Shown here one piece after another: positions 26,296 through 37,069 of a stretch of DNA of 64,000 nt. Below the pieces are notes generated by a model. That model had not been told where the DNA came from and did no database searches. It saw only the letters and a list, made by a program, of their open reading frames with translations. The stretch spans positions 868,001 to 932,000 of the forward strand of contig NZ_CP048882.1 of assembly GCF_015910445.1 (NCBI RefSeq), in the 5' to 3' direction. Each line of letters begins with the position of its first letter. The stretch's first letter is position 1. Origin of the DNA: Streptomyces bathyalis. GTDB lineage: Bacteria > Actinomycetota > Actinomycetes > Streptomycetales > Streptomycetaceae. A program made the translations under genes and the position numbers.

Positions 26296-27756
26296 CTACC
26301 GGGAGGTGGGCACGCGCTCCGCCTTCTCCTCCCGGCCGTGTGCGGCAGCGGACTTCTCGATGCTGCGCAGCCTGACCCATCCACCTGCGAGCAGCACGGC
26401 CCAGATGGCACCCACGTAGAGGGAGATGCGGGCCTCCGGGTCGTAGGCGATGAGGCCGGTGACCATGAGGAGGAACAGCAGCGCGACCGTGCTGGCCACG
26501 GCACCGCCCGGAGCGGGGAACGAGGACTCGCGCAACTGGCCCGCCTTCAGCGCCCGGCGGTAGCGGATGTGGCTGCAGAGGATCATCATCCAGGTCCAGA
26601 TGCCCGCGGCGGTCGCCACCGACGTGACGTAGCCGAACGCCTTCTCCGGCACCAGGTAGTTGATGACGACGCCGATCCCCATCAGCGCGACGGATGCCGT
26701 GATGCCGACGGCGGGCGACTTGCGGGAGTTGAGCCGCGCGAAGATCTTCGGCGCCTGGCTGTTCGCCGCCAGGTCGCGCAGCATGCGCCCGGTGGAGTAC
26801 ATGCCGGAGTTGCACGAGGACAGGGCGGCCGTCAGCACGACGAAGTTGACGATGCCGGCGGCCAGCGGAATGCCCATCTCGGAGAAGGCACGGACGAACG
26901 GGCTCTCCCCCTCCGAGTACTGCGTCCACTTCACGACCGACAGGATGATCAGCAGCGCACCCACGTAGAAGAAGATGATCCGCCAGGGCAGCGTGTTGAT
27001 GGCCTTGGGGAGGGTCTTCTCCGGGTTCTCCGACTCACCCGCGGTGACGCCGACGAGTTCCACGGCGAGGTAGGCGAACATGACGCCCTGGAGCGTCATC
27101 AGGCTGGAGCCGATGCCGTTGGGGAAGAACCCGTCGTGCGCGTACAGGTTTGCCGCCGAGGCGGTGTCGCCCACCTCGGAGAAGCCCAGGGTCAGCACAC
27201 CGAGACCGATCACGATCATGCCGATGATGGCCGTGACCTTGATCATCGAGAACCAGAACTCGATCTCCCCGAAAATCTTGACGGAGATGAGGTTCACTCC
27301 GAAGAGCACCACCAGGAACACCAGTGCGCTGACCCACTGCGGAATCACCGGGAACCAGAAATGGATGTAGATCGCGGCGGCCGTCAGTTCGGCCATGCCC
27401 GTGACGACCCAGAGGAGCCAGTACGTCCAGCCCGTGGCGAAGCCGAAGAACGGCCCGAGGAATTCGCGGGCGTATTCCGCGAAACTACCGGACACCGGCC
27501 GGTAGAGAAGGAGTTCGCCGAGTGCCCGCATGATGAGGAAGACGACCACACCCGCGAGGGCGTACATGAGAATGATGCTGGGGCCGGCCTTCGCGATATT
27601 CGCTCCGGCTCCCATGAAAAGGCCGACACCGATGGCGCCGCCGATCGCGATCATTTGAACCTGACGCGAACCGAGACCGCGCTCGTATCCCTCTTCGGAA
27701 CCGCTGCTCGCAGCCCCTCCGGCGTCTTCAGGCTGCCTGGTTTCCACCGAGACCAT
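26296..27756 (-). CDS. amino acid permease, CycA-like (D-Ala/D-Ser/Gly) type
   Basis: The 486-residue protein has 12 hydrophobic segments and follows E. coli CycA closely in landmarks: QMIAIGGAIGVGLFMGAG, MRALGELLL, FFGFATGWTYWLLWVVTGMAEL, FGEIEFWFSMIKVTAI, ELVGVTAGESENPEKTLPKAIN and NSGMYSTGRML. CycA imports glycine, D-alanine, D-serine and D-cycloserine with protons. The ATG at 27756 follows GGAGAAAGG at longer than usual spacing; the upstream in-frame ATG would add 54 uncharacteristic residues. It lies head-to-head with the GntR gene. Glycine import would suit the flavoprotein locus next door. Confidence 0.88.
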   Translation of the reverse strand: MVSVETRQPEDAGGAASSGSEEGYERGLGSRQVQMIAIGGAIGVGLFMGAGANIAKAGPSIILMYALAGVVVFLIMRALGELLLYRPVSGSFAEYAREFLGPFFGFATGWTYWLLWVVTGMAELTAAAIYIHFWFPVIPQWVSALVFLVVLFGVNLISVKIFGEIEFWFSMIKVTAIIGMIVIGLGVLTLGFSEVGDTASAANLYAHDGFFPNGIGSSLMTLQGVMFAYLAVELVGVTAGESENPEKTLPKAINTLPWRIIFFYVGALLIILSVVKWTQYSEGESPFVRAFSEMGIPLAAGIVNFVVLTAALSSCNSGMYSTGRMLRDLAANSQAPKIFARLNSRKSPAVGITASVALMGIGVVINYLVPEKAFGYVTSVATAAGIWTWMMILCSHIRYRRALKAGQLRESSFPAPGGAVASTVALLFLLMVTGLIAYDPEARISLYVGAIWAVLLAGGWVRLRSIEKSAAAHGREEKAERVPTSR

Positions 27757-28310
27757 TACGTCCGTGCCTTTCTCCACGTCCGGCCGCGCATTCGAATCGG
27801 GCCGGATCCGGCTCTCCCGGGAATGAATGGAGGTGCTGGCCGGCAATCTGCCAGCACTGGTCTCCTGCACAGCAGGAGGGACGCCGTGCAGGAGATCGTG
27901 AAGATTTATCACGGCCATGGGACCGGCTCCCGCGGCGAAGTGTGGCGGGCGTCACAGGGAGAACCGCCCATAGTCGGCGTGCCGCCCCAATTGGCTCGCT
28001 CCTGACACCCGGATCGTTACCTCGATTTGAGGATTGATTAAGGAATCCCCCGTTGACTTGAGCTGGAATTGAGGAAGCGATTGAGCTCGGCTTGAGGGTC
28101 CGTCAGGTGTCCTCGTCAGAAATTTGAGGATCACTTGAGGAAAGCCGCTCCACGGGCGGTGCTCGCGGCACCCGTGGAAGAAAAGGCCGACGCCGCAGCC
28201 GTCGCCCGGAACCCGGGGGAGGCGGGCCCGGCCCCGGCGTCGTCCGTGGTCCCGTCCGGGACTGTCGCCGCCCGGCTGACCAGCGGGCTCGCTGTGCGAG
28301 ACTACGCCGC
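27757..28310. other. 554-bp divergent control region without a gene
   Basis: The region between the CycA-like gene and the GntR gene is A/T-rich at 28010-28140 and holds the helically phased TTGAG array described separately. No coding sequence with actinomycete codon bias was seen. Confidence 0.6.
28027..28141. promoter_or_regulatory. helically phased array of TTGAG heptamers
   Basis: TTGAG occurs at 28027, 28058, 28069, 28081, 28092, 28124 and 28135, five of them as TTGAGG. Spacings are 31, 11, 12, 11, 32 and 11 bases, all close to multiples of one DNA turn, so the motifs face one side. Such 11-bp direct repeats are typical targets of OmpR/PhoB-type regulators. Confidence 0.5.
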
Positions 28311-29126
28311 ATGGCGCGTGTGTCTTCGGATCCCGGGTGGCTGGGGAGCGCCCCTGATCTGACTGCTCCGTCCACGCTTCCCGCGCACACCCGTATCGAG
28401 CGGTGGCTGATGGGCGTCATCGAGCGGCGCGATCTCGTACCCGGCGACAAGCTGCCCGTCGAGGAGCGGTTCGCCGCGAGTCTCGGGGTGAGCCGGATGA
28501 CTCTCCGGCAGGCGCTCGCGAGCCTGGAGAAGGCCGGGACCGTCGTACGGAAGAGGGGACGCGGCGTCGGCGGGACCTTCGTCTCCGAGGCAAGGATCGA
28601 GTGCGATCTTACGGGGCTGGCCGGGTTCACCGAGCAGATGCAACGGGCCGACGTCCGGGCGGGCGCCCGGCTCGTCAGCGCGGCGACGATAGCAGCCGAC
28701 CGGGCAGCCTCCGACGCGCTGTCCCTCCCGCCCGGTGCCGCGGTGCACGAAGTCGTGCGGGTGCGGACGGCCAATCGCCGGCCGCTTGCGCTGGAGCGTG
28801 CGTACTTCCCCGCAGAAGTGTTCCCGGACCTGCTGGAGCAGGGCCTGACCGGGTCGATCTACCGGCTGATCTCGCGCCGCTACGGGCAGAGGCCCCAGGT
28901 GGCGTCCGAGAGCCTGGAGCCGGTGATCCCGACCGAGGAGGAGGCCCGGCTGCTGCGCGTGGAGGCCACCACGCCGCTGATGCTGATCGAACGCACCGCG
29001 TACAGCGGCAGCGGGCTGGCACTGGAGTACGCGCGGGATCTGTTCAGGTCCGACCGGGTGCGCATCTCCTTCCGCACGGGAATCGGCCAGGCCGACGGCG
29101 CGAAGGGGACCGCCTCCAACAGCTAG
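28311..29126 (+). CDS. GntR/HutC-family transcriptional regulator (UTRA domain)
   Basis: The 271-residue protein has a GntR winged helix (IERWLMGVIERRDLVPGDKLPVEERFAASLGVSRMTLRQALASLEKAGTVVRKRGRG, about residues 28-85) and a C-terminal UTRA ligand domain (DRAASDALSLPPGAAVHEVVRVRTANRRPLALERAYFP and LMLIERTAYSGSGLALEYARDLFRSDRVRI). HutC-type regulators respond to small metabolites. A perfect HutC-type box (GTCTAGAC) lies downstream, before the flavoprotein operon. The CycA-like permease is divergent. No ribosome site is visible at the ATG. Confidence 0.92.
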   Translation: MARVSSDPGWLGSAPDLTAPSTLPAHTRIERWLMGVIERRDLVPGDKLPVEERFAASLGVSRMTLRQALASLEKAGTVVRKRGRGVGGTFVSEARIECDLTGLAGFTEQMQRADVRAGARLVSAATIAADRAASDALSLPPGAAVHEVVRVRTANRRPLALERAYFPAEVFPDLLEQGLTGSIYRLISRRYGQRPQVASESLEPVIPTEEEARLLRVEATTPLMLIERTAYSGSGLALEYARDLFRSDRVRISFRTGIGQADGAKGTASNS

Positions 29127-29467
29127 CCGTGGCGGCGGACTCCTCTGTCAGGGCTGCTGTCCCGAACGGCCGGGCGGGCCGGACTCCACGGGCGCTCACG
29201 GAAGTCGGCGGCTCCTCTCCCCCGCTGCTCATCGGCCGCCGTTCGCCCGCGACCAGCGGGTTTCCCTCCCGACGACCGGGCTTCACCATCCGGATGGCCT
29301 CCGCGCATTCACGACCCGAGGCGGATTGCGTCTAGACCTTTTATGAGTCCGGGCCCGGTGGTAGCGTCCGCCGTCTATCGGTCCGCGCCCGCCTCTCGGC
29401 CGGGCGCCGCAGCCAGCATCGCCATCTCGATCCCCAACGGCCCGCCTTCCGCGATCTACACCACGGG
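29127..29467. other. promoter region of the flavoprotein locus, no gene seen
   Basis: Apart from the GntR box at 29330-29337 and a -10-like TATGAG at 29342-29347, no gene or strong repeat was seen. A transcript starting near 29354 would have a leader of about 110 bases. Confidence 0.5.
29330..29337. promoter_or_regulatory. GntR (HutC-type) operator GTCTAGAC
   Basis: The palindrome fits the published HutC-subfamily consensus GT-N-TA-N-AC exactly. It lies 4 bases from a -10-like element and about 130 bases before the first flavoprotein gene. Confidence 0.55.
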
Positions 29468-31888
29468 ATGTTCATGGCACTGCCCGATCGGAGCCGAGTG
29501 GTCGTCATCGGTGGCGGCGTCGTCGGCTGCAGCATCGCTTACCACCTCGCGGGGCGCGGGTGGAGCGACGTCCTGCTGGTCGAGCGCAAGAACCTCACCC
29601 ACGGCAGCACATGGCATGCCGCCGGACTCGTGGGCCAGTTGAGAGGGTCCAGCAACCTCACGCGGCTGATGCGCAAGAGCGTGGAGACGTACCGGACCCT
29701 GGAGGAGTCCACGGGTTGTGCCACCGGATGGCGCGGCGTCGGCTCCGTACGCGTCGCCGCCTGCGCGGACCGGTGGGAGGAGCTGAAGCGGCTGGCGACC
29801 GCGGGCAAGAGCTTCGGCTTCGACGTCCACCTGGCCTCGCCCTCGGAGGCGAAGGAACTGTTCCCGCTGCTGGAGACCGACGGCCTGTACGGGGCTACGT
29901 GGGTGCCCGGCGACGGCTACGTCGACCCGAGCCAGCTGACCCAGGCCTTCGCCACGGGAGCCCGCGCCGCCGGTGTGCGCATCGTCCAGAACTGCCGCGT
30001 GGAGGCCGTCGAACGCCGGGGCCGCAGGGTGACGGCTGTGGTCACCGAGCAGGGCCGCGTCGAGTGCGACGTCGTCGTGAACGCAACCGGGATGTGGGGC
30101 ACGGAGACGGCGCGGCTCGCGGGAGTGGACGTCGCCGCGGGAATGGTGGAGCACCAGTACGTGGTGACGGAGAAGACGCCCGAGGTGCCACCGGACCTGC
30201 CGACGTTCCGCGACCCCGACGCCCGCATCTATCTCAAGCCGGAGACCGGAGCCCTGCTCGTCGGTGGCTGGGAGGACGGAACCCGCGTGCCGTGGCGCAC
30301 CATCCCGCGGGACCTGGGGCCCGAGCTGTTCACACCGGACATGGACCGCTTCGCGCCGCTCGCGGAGGGCGCCACCACCAGAGTGCCGGCGTTCGGCGAC
30401 CTGGGGATTCAGACGTGGGTCAACGGGCCGATCCCCTTCTCGCCCGACGCGGAACCCTTGATGGGCGTCACCGAGGGCCTGGACAACCTCTTCCACTGCT
30501 GCGGATTCTCAGCGGGCGTCGCGGCGGCGGGCGGTGCCGGTGACGCGATGGCGAACTGGATCGTCGACGGCGATCCGGGCATGGATCTGTGGCCCTTCGA
30601 CGTCCGCCGCTTCGGAGCGTCGCACAACGTGCCCGCCTATCTGGAGCAGCGCGTGGTGGGCGCGTACGAGAACTACTACCGACTGCACTACCCCAACAGC
30701 GAGTTGGCGGCCCCGCGCGGTCAGCGGCGCAGCCCCCTGCACGACGTGCTGCTCTCGCGCGGCGCGGTCTTCGGCACCAAGTACGGCTGGGAGCGGGCGA
30801 ATTGGTTCGCGCCGCCCGGTGTGGACCCGGTCGAGGAGCCGACATTCGGACGCAGCAACGCCTGGCCGCACATCGGGGAGGAGCACCGCGCGGTGCGCGA
30901 GGGCGTGGGAGTGGTCGACCGGACGTCGCTCGCCAAGGTCGAGATCTCGGGGCCCGGCGCACTCGCCCTGATGCAGAGGACCGCCGGCGCGGACCTCGAC
31001 GTCGCGCCGGGTCGCGTCGTGCACACCCAACTGCTCAACGTGCGGGGCGGCATCGAGGCGGACGTGACGGTCACCCGCCTCGCGGAGGAGCTGTTCCTCC
31101 TCGTCACGGGGAGCGCGTCCGGACGCCACGACCTTACGTTCCTGCTCCAGAACGCGCCCGACGACGGTTCGGTGACCGTACGGGACGTCACCTCCGCCTG
31201 GGGCGTGCTCGAGGTGTGCGGGCCGCGGGCGGGCGATGTCGTGCGGCAGTTGAGCCGATGCGACTTCGGCGACCACGCGTTCGGGTTCATGACCGCCCGG
31301 GAGGCCGATCTGGGTTTCGCACCGGTGCGGGCTCTGCGGGTGACGTGCGTCGGCGAGGCCGGCTGGCAATTCCACATCCCCACCGAGTACATGCGGGGCG
31401 TGTACGACCAACTCCTGGCCGCCGGCGCGGAGTCCGGGATCCGGGACGTGGGCTGGAGGGCGGTCGACTCGCTGCGTCTGGAGAAGCAGATCCCGCTCTG
31501 GCCGGCCGACATCGGCAGCGACCACAGCCCGTACCAGGCGGGGCTCGGCTCCGGGGTCCGTCCGGACAAGCCGGGATTGCTGGCCGGGCCGGCGCTGCGC
31601 AAGCTGCGGGACGAGCGCCCGGCGAAGAGGCTGTGCTGGTTCTCCACCGACGCGGACGTGGTGATGCACGGCGGTGAACTGGTGACGCGGGCCGGCACGG
31701 ATCTGGCCGCGGGTGTGAGGAGTGCGGGCTACGGCTGGACGGTGGGCAGAACCATCTTCAGCGCCTATGTGCCCGAGGAGTCCGCTCACGGCTCGGCCTT
31801 CCAAGTGGAGGTCGCGGGGCGCAGGTTCGACGCGACGCGCCACGACGCACCCCTCCACGACCCCGACGGGAAGAACTTCCGTACCTGA
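29468..31888 (+). CDS. FAD-dependent dimethylglycine/sarcosine dehydrogenase-like protein with GcvT domain (A)
   Basis: The 806-residue protein has an N-terminal FAD domain (Rossmann GGGVVG at 15-20), the motif GSTWHAAGL with His50 in the place of the covalent flavin histidine of dimethylglycine dehydrogenase, and a C-terminal GcvT/aminomethyltransferase half (from about residue 440; KVEISGPGALALMQR, GGIEADVTVTRL, SLRLEKQIP). The family oxidises N-methyl groups and passes the one-carbon unit to tetrahydrofolate. ATG 29474 is an equally good start; neither has a ribosome site. It begins a four-gene unit. The methylated substrate is not evident. Confidence 0.87.
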   Translation: MFMALPDRSRVVVIGGGVVGCSIAYHLAGRGWSDVLLVERKNLTHGSTWHAAGLVGQLRGSSNLTRLMRKSVETYRTLEESTGCATGWRGVGSVRVAACADRWEELKRLATAGKSFGFDVHLASPSEAKELFPLLETDGLYGATWVPGDGYVDPSQLTQAFATGARAAGVRIVQNCRVEAVERRGRRVTAVVTEQGRVECDVVVNATGMWGTETARLAGVDVAAGMVEHQYVVTEKTPEVPPDLPTFRDPDARIYLKPETGALLVGGWEDGTRVPWRTIPRDLGPELFTPDMDRFAPLAEGATTRVPAFGDLGIQTWVNGPIPFSPDAEPLMGVTEGLDNLFHCCGFSAGVAAAGGAGDAMANWIVDGDPGMDLWPFDVRRFGASHNVPAYLEQRVVGAYENYYRLHYPNSELAAPRGQRRSPLHDVLLSRGAVFGTKYGWERANWFAPPGVDPVEEPTFGRSNAWPHIGEEHRAVREGVGVVDRTSLAKVEISGPGALALMQRTAGADLDVAPGRVVHTQLLNVRGGIEADVTVTRLAEELFLLVTGSASGRHDLTFLLQNAPDDGSVTVRDVTSAWGVLEVCGPRAGDVVRQLSRCDFGDHAFGFMTAREADLGFAPVRALRVTCVGEAGWQFHIPTEYMRGVYDQLLAAGAESGIRDVGWRAVDSLRLEKQIPLWPADIGSDHSPYQAGLGSGVRPDKPGLLAGPALRKLRDERPAKRLCWFSTDADVVMHGGELVTRAGTDLAAGVRSAGYGWTVGRTIFSAYVPEESAHGSAFQVEVAGRRFDATRHDAPLHDPDGKNFRT

Positions 31889-31926
31889 GAATCCGATCAG
31901 CACGAGGACACGAGGAGCGACCGCGA

Positions 31927-32880
31927 ATGGACAAGCAGGACGCCGGCATCGTGGAAGACCTCTCCCGGACCGGGACGGAGCCGCTGAAGGATCTGCTGGA
32001 GCGGATTCCCTCTCTCGCAGGCCGGTCATGTGAGGTCTCGGAGCTCTCCGGCGGGCTGACGAACCGCAACTACCGGGTCGTCGCGGGCGGAACCGACTGC
32101 GTCGTACGGGTCTTCGGCAACGAACCCGAGTTGCCGATCGACCGTGACCACGAGCACCTCAATTCGACTGCCGCGGCGTCCACCGGTGTCGGCGCACCCG
32201 TCCTCGACTACATCCCGGACCACGGAATGCTGGTCGTCGGCTACATCGACGGCGTGACCATGTCCGACGAACTGATCAAGAAGCCCGGCAACCTCCGCCG
32301 TGTGGCGGAGTCCTGCCGCCGACTGCACCAAGGGCCGCGGTTCGTGAGCGAGTTCGACATGGCCGACGTGCAGGACCGGTACCTGGCGACGGTGCGGGAG
32401 CGTGGCTTCCGGCTGCCGGACCGCTATCTGGAGAACATGGAGGCCGTCCACCGGGTGCGTGACGTCCTGGCCGCGACCCCGGTCGAGACGGTGCCGTGCA
32501 ACAACGACCTGCTCGCCGAGAACTTCATCGACGACGGCGAACAGATCTGGATCATCGACTACGAGTACGCGGGCAACAACGACCCCTGCTTCGAACTGGG
32601 CAACATCTGGAGCGAATGCCACCTGTCCGTCGAGGAGTTGGAGGAGCTGATCACCGCGTACTTCGGCCGCCCCAGCCCCGGCAAGGTCGCACGCGCCCAG
32701 CTCCAGGGACTGATGTCGAAGTACGGCTGGACGCTGTGGGCGTCGATCCAGCAGGCGACGAGCAGCATCGACTTCGACTTCTGGACATGGGGGATGGAGA
32801 AGTACGACACGGCCGTCGGGATCCTCTCCAGCGGCTCCCGCTTCGAGCGTCTGCTGGAAGACGCCCGGATCGCCGACTGA
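31927..32880 (+). CDS. choline/ethanolamine-kinase-like phosphotransferase (APH fold)
   Basis: The 317-residue protein has a kinase-like APH fold: the N-lobe motif SGGLTNRNYRV, the catalytic loop CNNDLLAENFI (Asp194, Asn199) and the metal-binding IIDYEYA (Asp211). In choline kinases the loop normally reads HND; here the histidine is Asn192. The rest of the loop supports activity. A tryptophan-rich C-terminus (YGWTLWASIQQATSSIDFDFWTWG) is typical of LicA-like choline kinases. It lies 38 bases after the first flavoprotein gene and before a permease, so it may trap an imported amino alcohol by phosphorylation. Confidence 0.82.
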   Translation: MDKQDAGIVEDLSRTGTEPLKDLLERIPSLAGRSCEVSELSGGLTNRNYRVVAGGTDCVVRVFGNEPELPIDRDHEHLNSTAAASTGVGAPVLDYIPDHGMLVVGYIDGVTMSDELIKKPGNLRRVAESCRRLHQGPRFVSEFDMADVQDRYLATVRERGFRLPDRYLENMEAVHRVRDVLAATPVETVPCNNDLLAENFIDDGEQIWIIDYEYAGNNDPCFELGNIWSECHLSVEELEELITAYFGRPSPGKVARAQLQGLMSKYGWTLWASIQQATSSIDFDFWTWGMEKYDTAVGILSSGSRFERLLEDARIAD

Positions 32881-32956
32881 CCACCGCGGCCGGGCGCCGC
32901 CTCTGGAAGACCACGGGATCCTTGCCCGGCCCACGGCCACCTCCGAAAGGTCTGCC

Positions 32957-34540
32957 ATGCGCAAGAGCGACGCAACAACAGACAGCCGATCAGACACGGT
33001 GGACTCCGACGACCTCGCGACGCTCGGCTACCGCCAGCGACTGCACCGCGGCCTCGGCGGCTTCTCCTCCTTCGCCGCGGGATTCAGCTACATCTCGATC
33101 CTCACCGGCATGTTCCAGCTCTTCGGCCTGGGTTACGGGTTCGGCGGACCGCTGATCTTCTGGGCCTGGCTGCTGGTGTTCGCGGGGCAGTTCTGTGTGG
33201 CCCTGGTCTTCGCCGAACTCAGCGCGCGGTTCCCGATCGCGGGCTCCGTCTACCAGTGGTCGAAGAGGATCTCCGGCCGGGGCGGCGCCTGGATGGCGGG
33301 GTGGACCATGCTCGTCGGCTCGCTCGTCAGCGTTGCCGCGGTGACCATGGCGATGCAGGTCGTGCTGCCTCAACTGTGGTCGGGATTCGACGTGTTCGAG
33401 AACGACACGCACAACGCCGTGTTCCTCGGCACCGTCTGCATCGCGCTGACCACGCTGATCAACGCGCTCGGCGTGAAGGTCATGACCAAGGTCAACAACA
33501 TCGGCGTGGCCGCCGAGTTGCTCGGCGTCGCGGTGGTTCTGGTGCTGCTGGCGGTGCACGCCGTGCGGGGGCCGCAGGTCGTCGCCACGACGCAGGGCGC
33601 CGGGCCGGGCACCCCCGGCTGGGAGGTCCTGGGCTACGGCGCTCCGCTGCTGATGGCCGCCATCATGCCCGCCTGGGTCATGTTCGGCTTCGACACGGCG
33701 GGTTCACTCGCCGAGGAGACCCGCAACCCCCGCAAGCGCACGCCCGTGGCCCTGCTCCAGGCGCTCGGCGCCGCGGGAATCGCCGGCGCGCTGCTGCTCC
33801 TGTTCGCGCTCATGGCGACCCGCACGCTCGACCTCGAGAAGCTCGGTACGGCCGGTCTGCCGTACATCCTCCAGACGGTGCTGGGCTCCACGATGGGCAA
33901 GATCATTCTGCTGGACGTCGCGATCGCCGTGTTCATCTGCACCCTCGCCATCCAGACGGCCACGATCCGGATCGCTTTCTCCATGGCGCGCGACAACAAG
34001 CTGCCCTTCGGGGAGAAGCTCTCCCACGTCACCGACACCAGGCAGTCCCCGGTGGCCCCGGCGATCGTCTCGGGCCTGGTGGCAGCGGCGATCCTCATCG
34101 TCAACGTCGGCAACCCCCACATCTTCACGATCGTCACCTCCGTCGCCATCGCGATCGTCTACGCCGCCTATCTGCTGGTGACCGTGCCGGTGCTCAGGCG
34201 CAGGCTCGGCGGCTGGCCGCACGACCGGGGCGGCACGGGCCTGTTCACGATGGGACGCGCTGCCGGAATGATCGTGAACGGACTGGCCGTGGCCTACGGC
34301 CTGTTCATGACCGTCGATCTGCTGTGGCCACGCCAGGACGTGTACGGCGAGGGCGGCTACGCCTGGGGCGGAGTCGTCAGCTTCGTGGGGGTCGCGGTGC
34401 TCGGCGGCGCGTACTACCTGCTCGTGCAGAGGCACAAGTCCGACCAGGTCGCCGGCGAACATCTCCTTGTGACGGATGACGCCGGCTCCGGCAAAACCGG
34501 TGGAACCGGTGATCTGGAGACCCAGCATGCGGACGGATGA
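32957..34540 (+). CDS. APC-family permease (amino acid/choline transporter type)
   Basis: This 527-residue protein has 12 hydrophobic segments and belongs to the eukaryote-like ACT branch of the APC superfamily: LGYRQRLHRGLGGFSSFAAGFSYISILTGMF near the start, AELSARFPIAGSVYQWSKRI in helix 3 and AWVMFGFDTAGSLAEETRNPRKRTP after helix 6. Members carry GABA, amino acids or choline. Its place between a choline-kinase-like enzyme and a second N-demethylating flavoprotein makes it the likely importer of their substrate. TCCGAAAGG precedes the ATG. Confidence 0.9.
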   Translation: MRKSDATTDSRSDTVDSDDLATLGYRQRLHRGLGGFSSFAAGFSYISILTGMFQLFGLGYGFGGPLIFWAWLLVFAGQFCVALVFAELSARFPIAGSVYQWSKRISGRGGAWMAGWTMLVGSLVSVAAVTMAMQVVLPQLWSGFDVFENDTHNAVFLGTVCIALTTLINALGVKVMTKVNNIGVAAELLGVAVVLVLLAVHAVRGPQVVATTQGAGPGTPGWEVLGYGAPLLMAAIMPAWVMFGFDTAGSLAEETRNPRKRTPVALLQALGAAGIAGALLLLFALMATRTLDLEKLGTAGLPYILQTVLGSTMGKIILLDVAIAVFICTLAIQTATIRIAFSMARDNKLPFGEKLSHVTDTRQSPVAPAIVSGLVAAAILIVNVGNPHIFTIVTSVAIAIVYAAYLLVTVPVLRRRLGGWPHDRGGTGLFTMGRAAGMIVNGLAVAYGLFMTVDLLWPRQDVYGEGGYAWGGVVSFVGVAVLGGAYYLLVQRHKSDQVAGEHLLVTDDAGSGKTGGTGDLETQHADG

Positions 34541-34612
34541 CCCCGCCTCCGCCCCCGCGGAATCCGGTGTGAGCGACGGCGACCACGGCAACCTCGACGA
34601 GGGGACCCTGCA

Positions 34613-37069
34613 ATGAGCCCGGCAATGCCCGACCGCGCACGCGTGGTCATCATCGGCGGCGGCGTCATCGGCACAAGCGTGGCCTACCACCTCACCGAGC
34701 TGGGCTGGACGGACGTCGTCCTGCTCGAACAGGGGCAGCTCTCCTCCGGCACGACGTGGCACGCGGCGGGCCTGGTCGGCCAGTTGCGCGCCTCGCAGAG
34801 CGGCACCCGCCTCGTCCAGTACTCCACGCAGCTGTACGAGCGGCTGGAGGCGGAGACCGGCCTGGCCACCGGATACAAGCGCTGCGGCGGGGTGACCGTC
34901 GCCCGCACCGAGGACCGCATGACACAGCTCAGGCGGACGGCAGCCACCGCCGAGGCCTACGACCTCGACTGCGAACTGATCGGTCCGGCCCGCGCCAAGG
35001 AGCTGTATCCCGTCCTGGAGACCGAGGACCTGCTCGGCGCGATCTGGCTGCCGGGCGACGGCACCGCGAATCCCACCGACCTCACCGCCTCCCTGGCCAA
35101 GGGCGCCCGCATGCGCGGCGCACAGGTCGTCGAGCGGACCAGGGTCACGGGGATCTCCACGCGCGGCGGCACCGTCACCGGAGTGACCACGGACAAGGGC
35201 GACATCGAGGCGGAGTTCGTGGTCAACTGCGCCGGCCAGTGGGCCAAGGCCGTGGGCGAACTGGCCGGTGTGACCGTGCCGCTGCACTCGGCCGAACACT
35301 TCTACGTCGTCACCGACCGGATCGACGGCGTGCACCCCGCTCTGCCGATCCTGCGTGACCCGGACGGCTACACCTACTTCAAGGAGGAGGTGGGAGGGCT
35401 TGTCGTCGGCGGCTTCGAACCGGAGGCCAAGCCATGGGTGGCGCCCGACGAACTGCCGTACCCCTTCGAGTTCCAGCTCCTGGAGGAGGACTGGGACCAC
35501 TTCTCCGTCCTGATGGAGAGCGCCCTGCTGCGCATCCCCGCGCTGAGCGAGACCGGCATCAAGAAGTTCTACAACGGTCCTGAGAGCTTCACCCCGGACA
35601 ACCAGTTCATCCTCGGCGAGGCGCCCGAGCTGCGGAATTTCTACGTGGGGGCGGGCTTCAACTCCGTCGGCATCGCCTCCGCTGGCGGCGCCGGACGCGC
35701 CCTTGCCGAATGGATCACCGAGGGCTCCCCCACCTGTGACGTCGCCGGCGTCGACATCCGCAGGTTCGGGCGCTTCAACGGCAACAACCAGTGGCTGCGC
35801 GCCCGCGTCGGCGAGATCCTCGGGCTGCACTACGAAGTGCCGTGGCCCAACCGCGAAGTCGGCACCGCCCGTCCCTTCCGCCGCTCGCCCGTCCACCATC
35901 TGCTGGAGAACGCGGGCGCCGTCTTCGGTTCGAAGATGGGCTGGGAGCGCGCCAACGTCTTCGCTCCCGCCGGCACCGAACCGGCCCTTGAGTACTCGTG
36001 GGGCAAGCAGAACTGGCAGCCGTGGGCGGACGCCGAGCACCGGGCCGCCCGGGAGCGCGTCGCCCTGTTCGACCAGACGTCGTTCGGCAAGCTGCTCATC
36101 AAGGGCCGCGACGCGGAAGCCCTGTTGCAGTGGCTGTGCACGGCGGATGTCGCCGTGCCGCCGGGCAACACCGTCTACACCGGGGTCCTCAACGACCGCG
36201 GCGGATACGAGGCGGACGTGACAGTCACCCGCCTCGCCCATGACGAGTTCCTGTGGGTCACCAGCTCCGGGGCCGTGCTGCGGGACCTCGACCATGTGCG
36301 CAAGCAGACCGGCGAGGACGCCCATGTCACGGCTGTCGACGTCACTTCGGCGTACGCCGTCTTCGGGGTGATGGGGCCCCACGCCCGCGATCTGCTGCAG
36401 GGGCTCTCCCGCAGCGACCTCTCGCACGAGGCGTTCCCCTTCGCCACCAGCAGGGAGATCGACCTCGGCCACTACACGGTGCGCGCCACCCGCATCACCT
36501 ACGTCGGTGAACTCGGCTGGGAGTTGTACGTGCCAGTCGAGTTCGCCGTCGGCGTCTACGAGCTCCTGACCTCCGCAGGCGAGCAGTTCGGTCTCGCCGA
36601 GGCCGGGTACTACGCGATCAATTCACTGCGGCTCGAGAAGGGTTACCGGGCCATCGGCAGTGATCTGACCGCTGACCACAACCCGCTCGAGGCGGGACTG
36701 CTCTTCGCCTGCAAGCTCAAGAAGGACATCCCGTTCCGGGGACGCGAGGCCCTGGAGAAGGCCAGGGCCGCCGGCGCGCGGCGGAAGCTGGTGTCGTTCG
36801 TGCTCGACGACGCCGAACCGATGATGTGGGGAGGCGAGTTGGTGATGCGCGACGGCGTCGCGGTCGGCCAGGTCACCTCCGCCGCGTGGGGGGCCACCCT
36901 GGGCGCGTGCGTCGGCCTGGCGTACATCTGGCGCCGCGACGGCGAGCCCGTCACCAGGGACCATCTGACGTCCGGCACGTACGAGATCGACATCGGTGGC
37001 CGGCTGCACGGTGCGGCTCTGCACCTGCGCGCACCGTTCGACCCCGGTTTCAGCCGCGTCAAGCAGTGA
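34613..37069 (+). CDS. FAD-dependent dimethylglycine/sarcosine dehydrogenase-like protein with GcvT domain (B)
   Basis: The 818-residue paralogue of flavoprotein A keeps the same layout: Rossmann GGGVIG (15-20), GTTWHAAGL with His50, FAD-domain end, then a GcvT half with LLIKGRDAEALLQWL, GGYEADVTVTRL and SLRLEKGYRAIGSDL. The two proteins differ most in the substrate-binding part of the FAD domain, so they may act on consecutive or different methylamines. GAGGGG precedes the ATG at 9-base spacing. It is the last gene of the unit. Confidence 0.88.
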   Translation: MSPAMPDRARVVIIGGGVIGTSVAYHLTELGWTDVVLLEQGQLSSGTTWHAAGLVGQLRASQSGTRLVQYSTQLYERLEAETGLATGYKRCGGVTVARTEDRMTQLRRTAATAEAYDLDCELIGPARAKELYPVLETEDLLGAIWLPGDGTANPTDLTASLAKGARMRGAQVVERTRVTGISTRGGTVTGVTTDKGDIEAEFVVNCAGQWAKAVGELAGVTVPLHSAEHFYVVTDRIDGVHPALPILRDPDGYTYFKEEVGGLVVGGFEPEAKPWVAPDELPYPFEFQLLEEDWDHFSVLMESALLRIPALSETGIKKFYNGPESFTPDNQFILGEAPELRNFYVGAGFNSVGIASAGGAGRALAEWITEGSPTCDVAGVDIRRFGRFNGNNQWLRARVGEILGLHYEVPWPNREVGTARPFRRSPVHHLLENAGAVFGSKMGWERANVFAPAGTEPALEYSWGKQNWQPWADAEHRAARERVALFDQTSFGKLLIKGRDAEALLQWLCTADVAVPPGNTVYTGVLNDRGGYEADVTVTRLAHDEFLWVTSSGAVLRDLDHVRKQTGEDAHVTAVDVTSAYAVFGVMGPHARDLLQGLSRSDLSHEAFPFATSREIDLGHYTVRATRITYVGELGWELYVPVEFAVGVYELLTSAGEQFGLAEAGYYAINSLRLEKGYRAIGSDLTADHNPLEAGLLFACKLKKDIPFRGREALEKARAAGARRKLVSFVLDDAEPMMWGGELVMRDGVAVGQVTSAAWGATLGACVGLAYIWRRDGEPVTRDHLTSGTYEIDIGGRLHGAALHLRAPFDPGFSRVKQ

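Follow-up and report, generated by a model that had tools for sequence, protein, structure and literature searches.

Organization of the locus and proposed pathway

Why does a gene for a choline-kinase-like protein lie between two genes for flavin- and folate-dependent demethylases? This question is raised by a gene cassette at positions 28311-37069 of a 64,000-nucleotide stretch of Streptomyces bathyalis DNA (positions 868,001-932,000 of the complete 7.38 Mb chromosome, contig NZ_CP048882.1), hereafter the window, whose numbering is used for all its open reading frames. The answer favored here, for which we judge the chances to be evenly balanced, is that the cassette serves the catabolism of an N-methylated ethanolamine, likeliest N,N-dimethylethanolamine and/or N-methylethanolamine, to which a phosphate would be added before folate-linked demethylation. 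All the genes named in the original prediction for this locus (a GntR/UTRA regulator, two flavin adenine dinucleotide (FAD)/GcvT proteins, a kinase, a permease and a CycA-like permease) were present:

28311-29126, + strand: GntR/HutC-type (UTRA) regulator, likely the local repressor (Pfam GntR 55.6 bits, UTRA 131.9 bits)
29330-29337, no strand: operator box GTCTAGAC, in extended form GTCTAGACCTTT, 130 bp upstream of FADa
29468-31888, + strand: FADa, predicted FAD-dependent N-demethylase with a folate (GcvT) domain, clade A (Pfam domains and conserved residues)
31927-32880, + strand: KIN, kinase of the choline/ethanolamine kinase (APH) fold (Pfam Choline_kinase 82.7 bits)
32957-34540, + strand: APC permease, similar to TIGR03428 (519.6 bits) and also to 2A0304
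34613-37069, + strand: FADb, second predicted FAD-dependent N-demethylase with a folate (GcvT) domain, clade B (Pfam domains and conserved residues)
26296-27918, - strand: AA_permease (ProY/CycA-like by family assignment), divergent from the regulator

The four genes from FADa to FADb (29468-37069) lie on the same strand with intergenic gaps of 38, 76 and 72 bp, which makes a single transcript plausible. Since no close orthologues of KIN, FADa or FADb were found among 149 other genomes of the genus, the cassette appears to be rare within it and either acquired or rarely retained.

In the proposed pathway the APC permease would import the amine and KIN would phosphorylate its hydroxyl, so that the substrate acquires an anionic group. 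The covalent-FAD/GcvT enzymes would then oxidize the N-methyl groups and transfer the carbon to tetrahydrofolate as 5,10-methylenetetrahydrofolate. The resulting phosphoethanolamine would be dephosphorylated to ethanolamine, which would enter the GlnA4 (gamma-glutamylethanolamide) route encoded elsewhere in the genome, and the GntR protein would repress the cassette through GTCTAGAC. The substrate, the phosphorylation ahead of demethylation, the sequential use of the two oxidases, the dephosphorylation and the repression by GntR are the parts of this scheme that we infer. If true, its net effect would be the reverse of the phosphobase methylation pathway. The enzymes are of known kinds and the novelty lies in their combination; the original prediction knew of no described pathway of this type and neither did we find any, since nothing relevant appeared in the open-licence literature on a kinase with a dimethylglycine-type demethylase, on methylated-ethanolamine catabolism or on phosphobase demethylation.

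Linkage of kinase and oxidase genes

A kinase scan of the whole collection gave 78 loci, and nearly all those with enough flanking sequence include a FAD/GcvT gene. Among 395 genomes of the class, sampled independently, there were 59 close kinase homologues. A FAD/GcvT gene was found within 8 kb of the kinase in 48 of these 59 and directly adjacent to it (at most 200 bp) in 38, against a chance expectation of about 3% per genome, and FADb orthologues (at the level of at least 66%) were detected in 24 genomes of the class, 23 of which also contain the kinase; these counts are not phylogenetically independent and span many genera of actinobacteria and alphaproteobacteria. The kinase-oxidase architecture was found in unrelated actinobacteria, and the pair also in alphaproteobacteria. 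The full order FADa-kinase-permease-FADb occurs again in the homologous loci L123 and L037, and partially in L031 and L014. The oxidase partners of the kinase belong to several separate clades and the association is therefore not one inherited accident, so that the participation of kinase and oxidase in one pathway is well supported by these comparisons. That import, phosphorylation and folate-linked N-demethylation form one pathway, as originally predicted, is sustained by this linkage together with the shared operator and the intact catalytic residues described below, whereas the order of the steps is deduced. By contrast, the stepwise action of two oxidases is not general, as the majority of homologous loci have one FAD/GcvT gene and not two.

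In actinobacterial genomes of only 1.2-1.6 Mb (L120, L121, L125 and L127) the kinase gene persists with a single FAD/GcvT gene, the two forming a bare divergent pair; a DnaB-type helicase gene lies beside it in L127 and a polyamine-type ABC transporter is its neighbor in L121. Actinobacterial copies of the cassette were also observed in bins labelled Acidobacteriota, Spirochaetaceae and Bifidobacterium breve (L033, L054, L079 and L082), that of L033 being nearly identical to the cassette of L032, which suggests mis-binning in such metagenome bins.

The kinase

KIN exceeds the curated cut-off of the Pfam Choline_kinase family (PF01633; 82.7 against 29 bits) and matches PDB entry 3dxq (E=4e-41) and LicA (E=6e-21). 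Its AlphaFold model has a mean pLDDT (predicted local distance difference test) of 89.8, and the best 50 Foldseek matches of this predicted structure were all choline/ethanolamine kinases, with a TM (template modeling) score of 0.84 for 3dxq. In the LicA-choline structure, choline is contacted by T29, D176, V178, Y197, E213, W251, W254 and Y268 (PMC4364537). The equivalent residues of KIN are T45, D194, L196, Y214, E230, W268, W271 and W288, of which six are identical and two are conservative replacements (V178 by L196 and Y268 by W288), and these positions are conserved in 81-100% of 83 homologues. Moreover, the catalytic Asp194 and Asn199 are invariant across the same 83 sequences, and as judged from the alignment both the cation box and the catalytic apparatus of KIN are intact.

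KIN thus shares the fold, the catalytic Asp/Asn and the choline-contact residues with LicA-type bacterial and eukaryotic choline/ethanolamine kinases, and its C-terminal motif SSIDFDF resembles that of the Plasmodium ethanolamine kinase. It differs from them in the Brenner motif (C/S)HNDxxxxN, which reads C-N-N-D-x4-N with the His replaced, and in its catabolic setting, as lipid head-group genes are not found alongside. Neither licB nor licC (transporter and cytidylyltransferase) was found among the scanned genes of the window, nor do they recur across homologous loci. The score against the GntI guanitoxin kinase model (NF041256) was 181.9 bits, under the equivalog cut-off of 357.

The oxidases

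Both oxidases are complete and display the full DAO, FAO_M, GCV_T and GCV_T_C architecture of the dimethylglycine dehydrogenase/oxidase family (247, 59, 231.5 and 46.6 bits, respectively, for FADa; 258.6, 63, 248 and 60 bits for FADb). They are 44% identical to each other and are the only two such FAD/GcvT proteins that the genome yields at E<1e-150; L123 holds a copy of FADa with 69% identity. The closest solved structures are dimethylglycine dehydrogenases, and FADa and FADb share with dimethylglycine dehydrogenase and dimethylglycine oxidase (DMGO; 4pab, 5l46, 1pj5) the four domains, the covalent-FAD His, the His/Tyr pair and the folate Asp. FADa retains His50, His229, Tyr255 and Asp532, and FADb His50, His229, Tyr255 and Asp535, which correspond to the covalent-FAD His, the His225/Tyr259 pair and Asp552 of DMGO.

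In the phylogenetic tree, FADa and FADb fall in separate clades, A and B, and a further clade, C, provides the partner of this kinase in Nonomuraea and in actinobacteria with small genomes. Apart from these clades, DMGO groups with kinase-free Streptomyces enzymes, while the clades of FADa and FADb are mostly tied to a choline-kinase-like gene; rat dimethylglycine dehydrogenase (DMGDH) forms a long branch of unsure placement. In the kinase tree, homologues with B-type and C-type partners are interleaved, which fits the oxidase clades being able to substitute for one another. MabO, the gamma-N-methylaminobutyrate oxidase of the pAO1 nicotine plasmid, also belongs to the FAD/GcvT demethylases and likewise comes from a catabolic cluster that includes an APC permease, but it has purU and folD as partners, lacks a kinase and belongs to another clade.

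In L037 (8691-9989) and L031 (1878-3167) the FADa homologue directly before the kinase has the flavin part only (about 430 aa) and no GcvT. Other Streptomyces loci without a kinase (L187, 8467-16898; L189, 8806-15371) contain DMGO-like FAD/GcvT genes near a permease 49-50% identical to that of the window.

Operator, regulator and transporters

The 8-bp palindrome GTCTAGAC occurs once in the window against 0.35 copies expected, so that within the window alone it could be due to chance and proves nothing. In the homologous loci, 34 of 96 regions upstream of module genes match GTNTANAC, compared with 4.7% of random pieces, and all 34 matches read exactly GTCTAGAC. Of the 35 copies of this box, 33 lie at the starts of kinase, oxidase, regulator, permease or glutamine synthetase (GS) genes. 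Its total is only about twofold over the Markov expectation (27 versus 11.5), and hence the evidence for the box is its position and not its number. It was located between a GlnA4-type operon and a permease in L032 and L033 and between such an operon and the kinase in L130; in L172, whose kinase gene lies on a different contig, it is found upstream of FADb. This positional conservation marks GTCTAGAC as an operator conserved with the module and confirms the perfect HutC box recognized in the original prediction. The whole genome contains seven copies; the other six have no obvious module gene adjoining, and some resemble DasR-type sites.

The GntR regulator would bind this box and repress through it. 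Homologues with 46-67% identity lie beside the kinase or the oxidase in many loci. The best NCBIfam model of the regulator is PhnR (TIGR03337, the aminoethylphosphonate regulator), with 116.6 bits, far under the equivalog cut-off of 296.75.

The APC permease is the probable amine importer, as permeases 62-68% identical occupy the same place in L014, L031, L037 and L123; its 519.6 bits against TIGR03428, the permease model of the urea carboxylase system, are under the cut-off of 740.45. The CycA-like AA_permease, which the original prediction had noted next door, was rejected as a member of the set, since it is not conserved with the cassette and the intergenic region that it shares with the regulator contains no operator box. 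The kind of transporter varies among clusters (APC, polyamine-type ABC and betaine/choline-family ABC), the last kind preceding the kinase and oxidase genes of Rhizobium and Shinella.

Substrate context and order of the steps

In about 18 distinct loci the kinase gene, often with the oxidase gene, adjoins genes for GS-like, aldehyde dehydrogenase, short-chain dehydrogenase/reductase and C26 hydrolase proteins. The ethanolamine cluster of Streptomyces coelicolor glnA4 (SCO1610-1615), whose GlnA4 makes gamma-glutamylethanolamide, has the same make-up, but it acts on free ethanolamine and includes neither kinase nor demethylase (PMC6529630). The S. bathyalis genome has its own GlnA4-type cluster at 6.63-6.64 Mb, 5.7 Mb away from the cassette and thus not clustered with it. 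Distant relatives of the kinase in Paracoccus and Shinella have ethanolamine ammonia-lyase and a phosphatase-family gene as neighbors. In L132 (8007-12865) and L134 (639-12067), two tandem distant choline-kinase-like genes are accompanied by an M20-type Zn hydrolase, EutBC and an inositol-monophosphatase-type phosphatase (annotated hisN in Shinella), perhaps another route for phosphorylated ethanolamine; the hydrolase-kinase-kinase core appears without EutBC in L135, L136, L138 and L140.

2-Aminoethylphosphonate is the phosphonate analogue of phosphoethanolamine. The closest non-actinobacterial relatives of FADb (61-63%) were found in Sinorhizobium, Ensifer and Aminobacter. These orthologues have no kinase nearby; their neighbors are genes of 2-aminoethylphosphonate catabolism, located on one side or the other depending on the genus. 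This gene context suggests N-methyl-aminoethylphosphonate, the phosphonate counterpart of N-methyl-phosphoethanolamine, as their substrate; they possibly represent an uncharacterized N-methyl-aminoethylphosphonate demethylase. One clade is thus found either with a putative phosphonate-bearing substrate or with the kinase, and this pattern, an argument from gene context, makes the strongest case that the phosphate would be added ahead of demethylation. FADb orthologues beside 2-aminoethylphosphonate genes and a DeoR regulator are those of L219 (10001-12478), L220 (8001-10478) and L226 (9001-11451). FAD enzymes of another type (PbfB, PbfC and PbfD; PF01266) process N-methyl-aminoethylphosphonate in such clusters and provide a precedent for this substrate class (PMC10590968). 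Unlike the cassette oxidases, they bind FAD non-covalently, are only distantly similar to known enzymes and release methylamine and phosphonoacetaldehyde, without demethylation onto folate.

Several data weigh against phosphorylated N-methylethanolamines as intermediates. A conserved phosphatase or phospho-lyase was not found in the neighborhood of the actinobacterial loci. GlnA4 needs free ethanolamine, so the phosphorylation would spend ATP on a group that is then discarded. The aromatic box of KIN would fit choline too, the quaternary nitrogen of which is not oxidizable by a DAO-type flavoenzyme. Furthermore, in L130, L175 and L176 kinase homologues adjoin GlnA4 genes while the oxidase is elsewhere. 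Finally, the G-Q-L-R motif after the flavin His, present in FADa, FADb and every kinase-linked clade aligned and absent from DMGO and rat DMGDH, is also found in some relatives without kinase and is therefore no proof of phosphate binding. Its Arg59 was dropped as a phosphate marker, since kinase-free relatives carry the motif and pAO1 MabO has Arg59 alone; the motif is consistent with anion binding. Regarding candidate phosphorus-releasing genes, a class III aminotransferase of this genome at 6.68 Mb was discarded as phospho-lyase because it resembles argD in an arginine cluster, and a HAD gene was observed beside the kinase-oxidase pair in one mycobacterial locus.

Alternative explanations

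The lack of a conserved phosphatase nearby, the loci in which no oxidase accompanies the kinase, and the use of free ethanolamine by GlnA4, whose genes adjoin the kinase, would all be expected if the oxidases used free dimethyl- or methylethanolamine and the kinase served a parallel branch, either by phosphorylating choline or ethanolamine destined for lipid head groups or by supplying the UTRA regulator with a phosphorylated inducer. We consider this rather unlikely, because the bare divergent pair kept in genomes of 1.2-1.6 Mb argues for a direct metabolic link, and the kinase-free FADb orthologues lie in phosphonate clusters, where the acidic group would already be on the substrate. The same logic of kinase followed by demethylase could apply to another hydroxylated N-methyl amine, such as a hydroxylated betaine, an N-methyl amino acid or a different N-methyl aminoalcohol, since the transporters vary by cluster and the context sets the substrate class; this is an improbable option, given that the complete choline-site residues and the repeated adjacency to ethanolamine genes favor an ethanolamine core.

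If the cassette served the usual dimethylglycine/sarcosine steps of the choline-betaine pathway and KIN were an unrelated choline kinase, the nearest solved oxidase structures and the DMGO-like catalytic residues would fit. This reading was rejected as very improbable: no choline or betaine-aldehyde dehydrogenase gene is present in the cluster or nearby, DMGO lies in a different clade among kinase-free Streptomyces enzymes, and the oxidase-kinase linkage far exceeds chance. N-methylated ethanolamines are favored as substrates over betaine, dimethylglycine and sarcosine because of the kinase, the GlnA4-cluster neighbors and the orthologues linked to aminoethylphosphonate.

Biological meaning

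Beyond this locus, the data may reveal a widespread, undescribed bacterial route, to which we give slightly less than even chances, in which N-methylated ethanolamines are phosphorylated and the phosphobase is then demethylated onto tetrahydrofolate, the same oxidase family acting on N-methyl-aminoethylphosphonate where the kinase is unneeded. Should this hold, a large group of "choline kinase family" proteins so far without an assigned function would gain a catabolic role, among them those of streamlined, possibly freshwater acI-type, actinobacteria. Folate-coupled phosphobase demethylation would supply one-carbon units, nitrogen and ethanolamine, and the breakdown of choline-type headgroups and that of phosphonates would be joined through one enzyme family.

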